DNA of 64,000 nucleotides, from NCBI RefSeq assembly GCF_036322625.1, contig NZ_AP027266.1, forward strand, positions 499,001 through 563,000, in the 5' to 3' direction. The notes under the pieces were generated by a model. That model was not told the origin of the DNA. It worked only from the letters and a program-made list of their open reading frames with translations, and did not search any database. Positions 3,373-58,518 of this stretch are shown here, piece by piece (the first letter of the stretch is position 1; each line of letters starts with the position of its first letter). The DNA is from Roseicyclus marinus (lineage in GTDB: Bacteria; Pseudomonadota; Alphaproteobacteria; Rhodobacterales; Rhodobacteraceae). A program made the translations under genes and the position numbers.

Positions 3373-3476
3373 AGCATGTCGCGCAAAAGTGGGACCCGGT
3401 TTTGTGCTTCCCGGACATGCGAAATCAAAAGGTTATAGTGCGGCGCGTGAATGCGGATGAACGCGGGCGGGCTCTA
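3370..3476. repeat. Dispersed palindromic repeat, copy A (107 bp)
   Basis: This segment matches 49624-49729 over its whole length with scattered differences. Both copies begin TAGAGCATGTCGCGCAAAAG and end with GCTCTA, so the outer 6 bases are inverted repeats. Inside, GCATGTC and GACATGC form the base of one hairpin and a second, weaker hairpin follows. It fills the space between a plus-strand gene ending at 3372 and a minus-strand gene ending at 3482. It resembles the short intergenic mosaic elements known from alphaproteobacteria, but the family assignment is by memory of form only. Confidence 0.85.
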
Positions 3477-3481
3477 ACGCC

Positions 3482-4678
3482 TCAGCCCTCGGCGATGACG
3501 TTGATGGCGGCTTCCAGCCCCGTGGGCCCGTGCGGGATCTGCAACGCGGCCATCCCCGCCTGAAGCCCCGCCAGAAGCCCCAGAACCATATGGGCGTTCA
3601 CATGGCCCATATGCCCGATCCGCAGGAAATCCTCTTTCTGGCCATCGGCGCCTTCGACCCCGCCCAGCGGGATGCCCAGCGTGACGCCTGCATTGGCCGT
3701 CATCCAGTCGCGCAGGCGCTGACCGTTGCCCGCGCCGAAATTCACCGTGGTCACGGCATGGCTGCGCCTGGTCTCGGCGGCGATGTTGGGGCGGGCGGGG
3801 CCTGCCTGACCCCAGACCTCGACCGCGGCCCAGACGGCGCGCGCCAGCGTCGCATGCCGGGCCCAGACGTTGTCCAGCCCCTCTTCCTTGATCATGTCGA
3901 GCGCCGTCCGCAGCCCATAGAGGTGATGGGTCGGTGCCGTACCGTTAAAATACTTGTAATATTCATCGGGCTCGACGCGCGGCCGCCAATCCCAATAGGG
4001 CGTCACGAGGTTAGCACGCCCCCGCGCCGCATCCGCCTTGTCGTTGAAAAAGACAAAGGCCATGCCGGGCGGTGTCATCAGCCCCTTCTGGCTGCCCGTG
4101 ACCATCACGTCGACGCCCCAATCGTCCATGTGGAATTCGTCGCAGGCAAGGCAGGCGATATTGTCCGAGAACAAGAGCGCGGGATGCCCCGCCTCGTCCA
4201 ACGTGCGGCGCAGCGCCGGGATGTCGTTTCGCACACTGGTCGAGGTATCGACCTGCACCGCCAGAACCGCCTTGATCTTGTGGCCCGTGTCGGCGGCCAG
4301 CGCCTCGGCCACGCGGGCCATGTCGATGTCCGAGCGTTGGCCGAAATCGATCACCTGCGCATCGACGCCCATGGCGGTCGCCATCTCGCCCCAGCCCAGA
4401 CAGAACCGCCCGGTGCCCAGGATCAGGATACGATCGCCCCGCGACAGCGTGTTGACCAGCGCCGCCTCCCAGGCCCCGTGGCCATTGGCGATATACATCG
4501 CGACATTATGCTTGGTGCGCGCCACGGCCTTCAGGTCGGGAACAAGGCTGTGGGTCAGCTCCACCATTTCGCCGGTGTAGATATTCGGCGCGGGGCGGTG
4601 CATCGCCTGCAGCACCCGGTCGGGCATGACCGAAGGTCCCGGAATCGCAAGATAATGGCGGCCATTGGCAAGGCTCAT
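3482..4678 (-). CDS. Alanine/serine-glyoxylate aminotransferase family protein
   Basis: A 398-residue class V aminotransferase. These enzymes transfer an amino group from alanine, serine or aspartate to glyoxylate. The N-terminal IPGPSVMPDRVLQAM and the PLP lysine K198 in VTGSQKGLMTPPG are diagnostic; GIPLGGVEG lies near the C terminus. The ATG at 4678 has GGGAG seven bases upstream, whereas the upstream in-frame start does not. The closest biochemical choices are serine-glyoxylate aminotransferase and the aspartate-glyoxylate enzyme BhcA of the beta-hydroxyaspartate cycle. None of the other bhc genes is nearby, so the donor amino acid is left open. Confidence 0.85.
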   Translation of the reverse strand: MSLANGRHYLAIPGPSVMPDRVLQAMHRPAPNIYTGEMVELTHSLVPDLKAVARTKHNVAMYIANGHGAWEAALVNTLSRGDRILILGTGRFCLGWGEMATAMGVDAQVIDFGQRSDIDMARVAEALAADTGHKIKAVLAVQVDTSTSVRNDIPALRRTLDEAGHPALLFSDNIACLACDEFHMDDWGVDVMVTGSQKGLMTPPGMAFVFFNDKADAARGRANLVTPYWDWRPRVEPDEYYKYFNGTAPTHHLYGLRTALDMIKEEGLDNVWARHATLARAVWAAVEVWGQAGPARPNIAAETRRSHAVTTVNFGAGNGQRLRDWMTANAGVTLGIPLGGVEGADGQKEDFLRIGHMGHVNAHMVLGLLAGLQAGMAALQIPHGPTGLEAAINVIAEG

Positions 4679-36466: not shown

Positions 36467-37972
<1,506 letters not shown>

Positions 37973-56085: not shown

Positions 56086-56865
56086 ATGGTCGAACTGACG
56101 CTTCCCAAGAATTCCCGCATCCGCACGGGCAAGACATGGCCCAAGCCCGAGGGCGCGACCAACCTGCGCAAGTTCCAGATCTATCGCTGGAACCCCGATG
56201 ACGGGGAAAACCCGCGCGTCGATACCTATTGGGTCGACATGGACAGCTGCGGCCCGATGGTTCTGGACGCGCTGATCAAGATCAAGAACGAGATCGACCC
56301 CACGCTGACCTTCCGCCGGTCCTGCCGCGAGGGGATCTGCGGGTCCTGCGCGATGAACATCGACGGGATCAACACGCTGGCCTGCATCTACGGCATGGAC
56401 GAGATCAAGGGCGACGTGAAGATCTACCCGCTGCCGCATATGCCGGTGATCAAGGACCTGATCCCGGACCTGACGCATTTCTATGCGCAGCATGCCTCGA
56501 TCATGCCCTGGCTCGAGACGAAGACGCAGCGCCCCGAAAAGGAATGGCGCCAGTCGATCGAGGATCGGAAAAAGCTCGACGGGCTTTATGAATGCGTGAT
56601 GTGCGCCTCCTGTTCGACGTCCTGCCCCAGCTATTGGTGGAACGGGGACCGCTACCTTGGGCCGGCGGCGCTGCTGCATGCCTATCGCTGGATCATCGAC
56701 AGCCGTGACGAGGCGACGGGCGAGCGGTTGGATGATCTGGAAGATCCCTTCAAGCTCTACCGCTGCCATACGATCATGAATTGCGCCAAGACCTGCCCCA
56801 AGGGTCTGAACCCGGCCAAGGCGATTGCCGAGATCAAGAAGATGATGGTGGAACGCCAGCTCTGA
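56086..56865 (+). CDS. sdhB: Succinate dehydrogenase, iron-sulfur subunit
   Basis: A 259-residue electron-transfer subunit with three clusters: [2Fe-2S] in [16 protein letters not shown], [4Fe-4S] in [12 protein letters not shown], and [3Fe-4S] in [22 protein letters not shown] lies before the ATG at 56086. It ends the operon and is followed by two palindromes and an intrinsic terminator. Confidence 0.97.
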
Positions 56866-56873
56866 GGCGTGCC

Positions 56874-56926
56874 GCCGAATTTTCGTACGAAAATTCGGCT
56901 CTGCGATTATTCGTACGAATAATCGC
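56874..56926. repeat. Two tandem perfect palindromes after sdhB
   Basis: A 26-bp perfect palindrome (56874-56899) and a 24-bp one (56903-56926) stand three bases apart. Both have no loop and the same centre, TTCGTACGAA, but different arms. They lie between the sdhB stop and its terminator. Confidence 0.85.
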
Positions 56927-56930
56927 GTGA

Positions 56931-56955
56931 CCCCGCCCCGAAAGGGCGGGGTTTT
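56931..56955 (+). terminator. Intrinsic terminator of the sdh operon
   Basis: CCCCGCCC pairs with GGGCGGGG around CGAAA and is followed by TTTT. It lies 66 bases after the sdhB stop. Confidence 0.9.
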
Positions 56956-57065
56956 GCATGTGCGCTCCGGGCAAGGCGGCGTTGCACAATCATGGGATGT
57001 GGCGGCCGTCGACTGTGACTAGCTTTCCCCGCAAGGGAGGCAGTGACCGTCAAGGAGACATCCCG

Positions 57066-57206
57066 ATGGCTGAGCAGCCGAAAACCCCCGCCTTCGACCC
57101 CGACTAGGCCCTGCGCCTGTTGGAGGAGGCATGGGCCTATTTCACCCCCGGGCCGAAGCCCGCGCCGCAAGACCATGCCTACGAGGATCTGCCGATCGCG
57201 GCCTGA
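57066..57206 (+). pseudogene. Small ORF with an in-frame TAG, paralogue of the next ORF
   Basis: Read from the ATG at 57066 (AAGGAG seven bases upstream), the frame gives 13 residues ending AFDPD, then TAG at 57105-57107, then ALRLLEEAWAYF and on to a TGA at 57204. The part after TAG matches ALRLLEESWAYF of the ORF at 57360, where the TAG position is GCA (Ala). So this is a 46-codon gene broken by one nonsense codon, or a sequencing error, or a gene with recoding. About 150 bp with a GC-rich stem (57231-57254) separates it from its paralogue. Confidence 0.6.
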
Positions 57207-57359
57207 TGCGCAGGGTGGATGGTGCCAAACCCCTCCCCCTCCGCTCGGGGAGGGGGTCACTCTGGCGGCATGGCGGGGTTGCAAAAAGAAAATGCCGCGA
57301 TGCAGCAAAATCCTTAAGATGAGTGGGTATGATTTTTTACACGTAAAAGGAGATTAACG

Positions 57360-57488
57360 ATGTCCAAATCATGCCCCAAGACCCATTTCGACGCCGATGC
57401 AGCCCTGCGCCTGTTGGAGGAAAGCTGGGCCTATTTCGGCAAGACCACCAAGCCACAGAAAACATCCAAGAGCGCTGGCGCGCGCTGA
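57360..57488 (+). CDS. Very small protein with ALRLLEE-WAYF motif
   Basis: A 42-residue ORF (starts MSKSCPKTHFDADAALRLLE) with a strong AAGGAG ribosome binding site and a short amphipathic helix followed by SWAYF and a basic Lys/Ser/Thr tail. The paralogous ORF 294 bases upstream shares the helix and WAYF part but not the tail, which argues that the segment is selected. Function unknown. It ends four bases before the stop of the convergent trpS gene. Confidence 0.6.
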   Translation: MSKSCPKTHFDADAALRLLEESWAYFGKTTKPQKTSKSAGAR

Positions 57489-57492
57489 CCGC

Positions 57493-58518
57493 TCAGCTGC
57501 GCAGCATCCCCACGATATCATAGGTCCGGGCCAGGATCGGGGCCGCGATTTCGCGCGCGCGTTCGGCCCCGCGGCCAAGGATGCGGTCGATCTCGGCGGG
57601 GTCGTCCATCAGGCGCGACATCTCTGTCGTGATGGGCGAGAGCTTTTCGACCGCCAGATCTGCCAAGGCCATCTTGAAATGGCCGAACAGCGCGCCCTGA
57701 TGCTGGTCGAGCACGGCCTGCGGCGTGATATCGGCAAGGGCTGCATAGATGTTCACGAGATTGCGCGCCTCGGGGCGGCTTTCGAGGCCCGCCAAAGCCT
57801 CGGGCAGGGGATCGGGGTCGGTCTTGGCCTTGCGGATCTTTTTCGCGATCTCGTCGGCGCTGTCTGTCAGGTTGATGCGCGTCTTGTCCGAGGGGTCGGA
57901 CTTGGACATCTTTTTCGTCCCGTCCTGCAGGTTCATGACGCGGGTGGCCGCCCCTTCGATCACGGGTTCGGTGATGGGGAAGAATTCCTGCCCGTAATCG
58001 TGGTTGAACTTGGCCGCGATGTCGCGGGTCAGTTCCAGGTGCTGTTTCTGATCCTCGCCCACGGGCACATGGGTCGCGTGATAAAGGAGGATATCGGCGG
58101 CCATCAGGGCGGGATAGGCGAAGAGCCCCAGCGAGGCGGCTTCGGCATTCTTGCCCGCCTTGTCCTTCCACTGGGTCATGCGGCCCATCCAGCCCATGCG
58201 CGCGACGCAGTTGAAGATCCAGGCCAGTTGCGCGTGTTCGGGAACCTGCGACTGGTTGAAGAGGATGGATTTTTCCGGGTCGATGCCGACCGCGATGAAG
58301 CCTGCGCACAATTCACGCGTGTTGCGGCGGAGCGTGTCGGGGTCTTGCAGGGTCGCGGTGATCGCGTGCAGGTCCACCATGCAATAGATCGTCTGGTGGG
58401 TGCCTGCATCCTGCATGGTGACGAAGCGTTTCATCGCGCCAAGGTAATTGCCCAGCGTCAGACCGCCCGAGGGCTGGATGCCCGAGAATACGCGCGGTGC
58501 GAAATGCGGTGCCGTCAT
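57493..58518 (-). CDS. trpS: Tryptophanyl-tRNA synthetase
   Basis: A 341-residue class Ic synthetase that charges tRNA-Trp. The HIGH-like motif lies in [17 protein letters not shown] and KMSKS occurs in [11 protein letters not shown]. Length is standard. It is divergent from the rhomboid-like gene, about 100 bp away, and converges with the small ORF. Confidence 0.96.

Follow-up and report, generated by a model that had tools for sequence, protein, structure and literature searches.

A conserved sdhB-linked family of small proteins in Rhodobacteraceae and its tandem pair with one copy interrupted by TAG

Two short open reading frames downstream of sdhB, here termed ORF1 and ORF2, belong to a family of small proteins of Rhodobacteraceae that is real and apparently undescribed. 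The explanation that best covers our analysis of the 64,000-nucleotide stretch containing them (the window), and which we place slightly above an even chance, is a conserved sdhB-linked family with a docking helix and a degron tail, in which ORF1 would have suffered a loss and ORF2 would be a helix-only duplicate. A preliminary description had drawn attention to two ORFs of 46 and 42 codons with AAGGAG sites and a shared ALRLLEE-x-WAYF segment, all of which is confirmed in the sequence, whereas the sdhB linkage, the conserved promoter and the -AA tail were absent from it. ORF1 starts 200 bp downstream of sdhB on the same strand (Table 1). The SD-like sites tcAAGGAGacatcccgATG and aaAAGGAGattaacgATG before ORF1 and ORF2 are of the AAGGAG type and at normal distance, ORF2 having a strong AAAAGGAG site.

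Table 1. Positions in the window of sdhB, the two small ORFs and the elements around them
Feature	Position	Strand or place	Remarks
sdhB, succinate dehydrogenase iron-sulfur subunit	56086-56865	+	259 aa ORF; identity to upstream protein at other loci
Palindrome pair, core TTCGTACGAA, 28 bp apart	56875-56925	sdhB-ORF1 intergenic	both perfect
Terminator-like hairpin ccccgcccc-gaaa-gggcggggtttt	56930-56955	+	between sdhB and ORF1; read from the sequence
Conserved upstream motif of ORF1, GTGCGCTCCGGGCAAGGCGGCGTTGCACAATCAT	56960-56993	+	model from 65 upstream regions of other genomes
-10-like CTAGCTT, then conserved AAGGGAGG	57019-57040	+	spacing and sequence kept across loci
ORF1, orthologous copy of the small protein, 46 codons, ATG...TGA	57066-57206	+	reads MAEQPKTPAFDPD*ALRLLEEAWAYFTPGPKPAPQDHAYEDLPIAA
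Premature TAG, codon 14 of ORF1	57105-57107	+	codon alignment with relatives and ORF2
Diverged copy of the upstream motif before ORF2	57257-57290	+	fourth-best motif match in the window
ORF2, second copy, 42 codons, ends AGAR	57360-57488	+	reads MSKSCPKTHFDADAALRLLEESWAYFGKTTKPQKTSKSAGAR
trpS, convergent downstream neighbour	57493-58518	-	window ORF list and comparison

Homologues were searched for with ORF1 as the query, its TAG being treated as a residue. Orthologues were found in the same genus (Roseicyclus marinus, with 85% identity and without the stop, Roseibacterium persicicum and others), and a scan of GTDB contigs recovered 27 loci in Ruegeria, Actibacterium, Roseovarius, Seohaeicola and other Rhodobacteraceae, one of them in a record labelled just Alphaproteobacteria. 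Of 397 Rhodobacteraceae genomes searched with profiles, 64 had a match in the first search and 74 at E<=0.05 in a later one; a widened profile gave 79 at E<=0.1 and 70 at E<=0.01. The GTDB loci and the 70 genomes at the strictest of these thresholds bear out the earlier suggestion of a small-protein family in the intergenic DNA of Rhodobacteraceae. In 289 genomes of the class, just two matches fell outside Rhodobacteraceae; both are within long open frames, of 575 and 702 aa, and seem to be chance matches. Viral contigs and plasmids contained no relatives. No Pfam or NCBIfam model matches ORF1, ORF2 or the family members (47 members in the Pfam scan), and no description of the family was found in the papers searched, as had been suspected from the start. 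Sequence profiles recovered chance matches only in the PDB, and a PDB fold search with the one-helix model returned nothing, as expected.

Pairwise dN/dS values (finite values only, ORF2 excluded) are 0.07-0.35 in 10 of 11 pairs. ORF1 versus Roseibacterium persicicum gives 0.65, a figure that carries the noise of estimates from 46 codons. At the level of sequence comparison, these values show the small gene to be protein-coding and under purifying selection, and the homologues with ribosome-binding sites to which the preliminary description had looked for support were also found. Family members have 31-66 residues (median 49). In their consensus, AxxALxxLEQAWAYYTP stands between a variable start and a variable linker, and the end is aromatic/acidic and finishes in AA; the core motif AL-x-x-L-[ED]-x-x-[WYF]-x-Y-[YF] is present in both window copies. 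AlphaFold2 predicts a single helix of residues 12-26, with a pLDDT of ~90 over residues 11-20 and lower values elsewhere. We propose that this helix, with A15, L16, L19, W/Y23 and Y25/Y26, would dock on a partner.

The protein end is the other conserved part. Two C-terminal alanines are found in 59 of 67 distinct family proteins, compared to 1 of 38 long genes in the window; some members, including ORF2, do not have this end. The AA tail of ORF1 (YEDLPIAA) is encoded behind the TAG, and ORF2 ends in AGAR. The tmRNA tag of the host, read from the genome as ANDNRAPAMALAA, ends in ALAA, and in Caulobacter two C-terminal alanines have been described as a common ClpXP degron (CdnL; PMC11034885). 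Given the frequency of the -AA end, the tmRNA tag and the Caulobacter degron, a signal for regulated degradation, that is a ClpXP-type degron, most likely explains why the tail is fixed. With such a degron, the amount of the peptide would track its regulated promoter.

SdhE/SDHAF2 and SDHAF4 (DUF1674) are small proteins tied to succinate dehydrogenase, and the family is like them in size class and in its proposed connection to this enzyme. It differs from them in being shorter, with one helix, a proline-rich linker and the -AA end, and none of 47 members matched the Pfam models of SDHAF4/DUF1674 or SdhE/SDHAF2 at E<=1. The DUF1127 proteins of Alphaproteobacteria are widespread small regulators, often of fewer than 50 residues (PMC12501420, PMC11707872). 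The DUF1127 Pfam model is matched by neither ORF1, ORF2 nor the 47 members, and the family is set apart from DUF1127 by its tie to sdhB and its aromatic/acidic tail. With CdnL and other alphaproteobacterial AA-degron proteins (PMC11034885) it shares the two terminal alanines but no sequence relation beyond the C-terminal end, and degradation of the small family is predicted. Finally, Pos19 of Rhodobacter sphaeroides, a small coding RNA, resembles the family in being a short gene of Rhodobacteraceae that is intergenic and contains a small ORF; its location between cxp and fadB on chromosome 2 (PMC5036791), and not at sdhB, led us to reject it as the same gene.

A tblastn analysis with SdhB places sdhB upstream of the small gene and on the same strand at 24 of 27 loci in a first set and at 29 of 30 in a second, whose remaining locus proved to be linked once the flank was extended. 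The third and fourth sets, which include the weakest profile matches, are sdhB-linked except for two loci. Counting each genome once, ~80 of 85 distinct loci, in dozens of genera, are linked, and at these the protein upstream of the small gene is 88-100% identical to the SdhB of the window. Linkage is missing at one contig end, in one lineage with two members and at two single loci. In one lineage, at L041 and L042 (~3400-4230), the small gene directly follows an apparent Lrp/AsnC-type regulator gene and is not at sdhB.

The adjacency might be inherited synteny only, the peptide being unrelated to succinate dehydrogenase, and we regard this as a serious competitor that falls somewhat short of an even chance. 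It would fit the promoter-like region that the small gene has of its own, the terminator-like hairpin between it and sdhB, the variable distance between the two genes (~125 bp to 3.5 kb), and the one lineage and two other loci in which sdhB was not found upstream. What speaks against it is that sdhB stays constant while the downstream neighbours change between genera; named by reading the sequences, these are trpS, BNR-type, decarboxylase-like, helicase, oxidoreductase and other genes. In the favoured explanation of an sdhB-linked docking peptide, the partner would probably be found in succinate dehydrogenase or in TCA-cycle control, and the likely role would be docking by a peptide that is turned over rapidly and has a link to the TCA cycle. 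The link to succinate dehydrogenase function is one we infer from gene neighbourhood only. Since about one in six of the sampled Rhodobacteraceae genomes has a match, the small protein is not needed for succinate dehydrogenase in general, or else the profile misses divergent members.

For the core of the palindromes between sdhB and ORF1, the expected number in the window is 0.04. The genome has ATTTTCGTACGAAAAT at 9 places and, at the four separate sites that were read, always as a pair; the palindrome pair is also found after sdhB in another Roseicyclus (L039).

The TAG of ORF1 has no counterpart, as no in-frame stop occurs in the other family members (~70 surveyed). Its position is occupied by GAA (Glu) in Roseicyclus marinus, GCG (Ala) in Roseibacterium persicicum and GCA (Ala) in ORF2. 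The preliminary description had the TAG opposite an Ala codon, which holds for ORF2 but not for the nearest relative. It had also noted that the frame stays open and alike after the TAG, and this part is indeed still constrained: relative to Roseicyclus marinus, ORF1 has a dN/dS of 0.12 (dS 0.74, dN 0.09; 15.5 synonymous and 8.5 other changes), and beyond the TAG most changes remain synonymous and the frame runs on to the retained tail YEDLPIAA. Because constraint continues beyond the TAG, the stop would be either recent or not real, the same two options, knockout or sequencing error, that had been raised before. We regard it as a local event, not a mechanism. Translation of ORF1 would stop after 13 residues, and the simplest reading is a recent loss-of-function allele. 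Stop codon usage in the 38 long window genes is 29 TGA, 9 TAA and 0 TAG, making TAG rare in the region.

A base-calling or assembly error, which would leave ORF1 intact and working, seems unlikely to us. It would agree with the intact and constrained state of the rest of ORF1, its SD site and its promoter, and with the lack of any stop in other family members; however, the genome is a single contig of 99.93% completeness, in which individual bases are seldom wrong, and the GAA of the nearest relative is two bases away from TAG, so that a single error needs a different underlying codon.

The 110 nt preceding the start codon are conserved across loci. A motif model fitted to 65 upstream regions from other genomes, with the window copies excluded, corresponds to WTGC-N7-GCATGGC-N5-TGC. 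When 127,932 window positions were scored, the region upstream of ORF1 came out best and that upstream of ORF2 fourth, the distance from motif to ATG being 72 nt and 69 nt, respectively. Moreover, GGGAGG is found 38-42 nt past the motif window in 56 of the 65 regions, although the spacing was not used in fitting. The motif upstream of ORF1 probably serves as a binding site for a regulator or as an element of the promoter, and the -10-like element with the conserved sequence behind it is the likely, predicted transcript start. The layout, with symmetrical TTGC-N7-GCA halves ~65 bp before this presumed start, would suit a LysR-type regulator. A GC-rich inverted repeat followed by Ts is found in the same place in Roseicyclus marinus; with such a hairpin between sdhB and the motif, the small gene is probably transcribed on its own, separately from sdhB.

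The other high-scoring motif matches in the window, at 36629 and 40317, fall within the coding regions of sucB and sucA. A genome-wide motif search for co-regulated genes gave unspecific matches and, with two mismatches allowed, failed even to recover the site in the window. We also considered whether GGGAGG could serve as the SD of an upstream ORF and rejected this, since the loci have no shared start codon there. In homologues (e.g. L044, L053, L089, L114) the leader contains a stem whose 3' arm ends right before the start codon, and changes that keep the pairing are seen in several genera, for example GGAGTGAT/ATCACTCC and GGAACTC/GAGTTCC. The leader hairpin is only moderately supported.

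The strong conservation of promoter, GGGAGG leader and spacing could also mean that what is conserved is chiefly an RNA, in the form of a short transcript whose leader is structured, the peptide being secondary. The leader hairpin is on average better than in shuffles (mean z -0.60), with a mean arm length exceeding that of every one of 200 shuffles, but it is weak in many members and in the first window copy (z -0.34), the locus has no Rfam match, constraint is seen at the codon level, and the protein core and end are conserved while the linker between them varies in length; we give this possibility little credence. Readthrough of the TAG, programmed or by a suppressor tRNA, would yield full-length ORF1 and agrees with the persisting constraint and with the fact that TAG ends none of the long window genes, but relatives have no stop at that position and a CUA anticodon is found in 0 of 39 tRNA genes (from an incomplete list in which, e.g., tRNA-Tyr is missing), so that we consider it highly improbable.

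ORF2 is the odd copy of the pair, a point that the preliminary description did not contain. The DNA of the two ORFs has 51 bp in common (82% identity, E=4e-12), and a profile built without the window copies recovers both ORF1 (E=4.1e-15) and ORF2 (E=2.9e-8); the likeness is therefore not chance. Beyond the core and the upstream block they are barely similar. ORF2 has kept the N-terminal part, the helix core and the upstream motif, is without the conserved C-terminal tail and -AA end, and carries a tail unrelated to that of the family. ORF1 and ORF2 are the only family copies in the window's own genome, whereas no second copy was detected at E<=0.05 in the other surveyed genomes. No ORF2 orthologue was found in 36 relatives, and ORF2 DNA used as query matches just the cores of ORF1 orthologues. 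At the silent sites of the ALRLLEE codons ORF2 is nearer to ORF1 than Roseicyclus marinus is, suggesting that a duplication or gene conversion took place in the window's lineage. In the compared Roseicyclus marinus genome, ~2 kb with a BNR-type gene lies between the small gene and trpS in place of ORF2, and thus the two lineages differ by a rearrangement here. In the explanation we favour, ORF2 would be a duplicate that carried its promoter block with it and kept the helix, the degron tail being gone, and its product, if made, would be a stable helix-only form; ORF2 would then be either a remnant or a partial substitute.

With this analysis, the TCA-cycle region of abundant marine bacteria gains a well-delimited microprotein family that Pfam and NCBIfam do not contain. 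The conserved promoter motif and the likely degron offer direct experimental handles, and the tandem pair would provide a natural loss of the main copy that can be compared with intact relatives. The most far-reaching version, in which succinate dehydrogenase assembly or activity in many Rhodobacteraceae is controlled by an undescribed microprotein that is separately regulated and rapidly degraded, and this strain has replaced the degradable form by a stable duplicate with the helix only, is in our view a long shot.

Finally, ~37 bp before ORF2 (57278-57314) are shared, at 86%, with a site elsewhere in the genome (L100, ~1501-1540), in the upstream region of an apparent sugar ABC transporter gene. 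This likeness may reflect a shared regulator site or chance.
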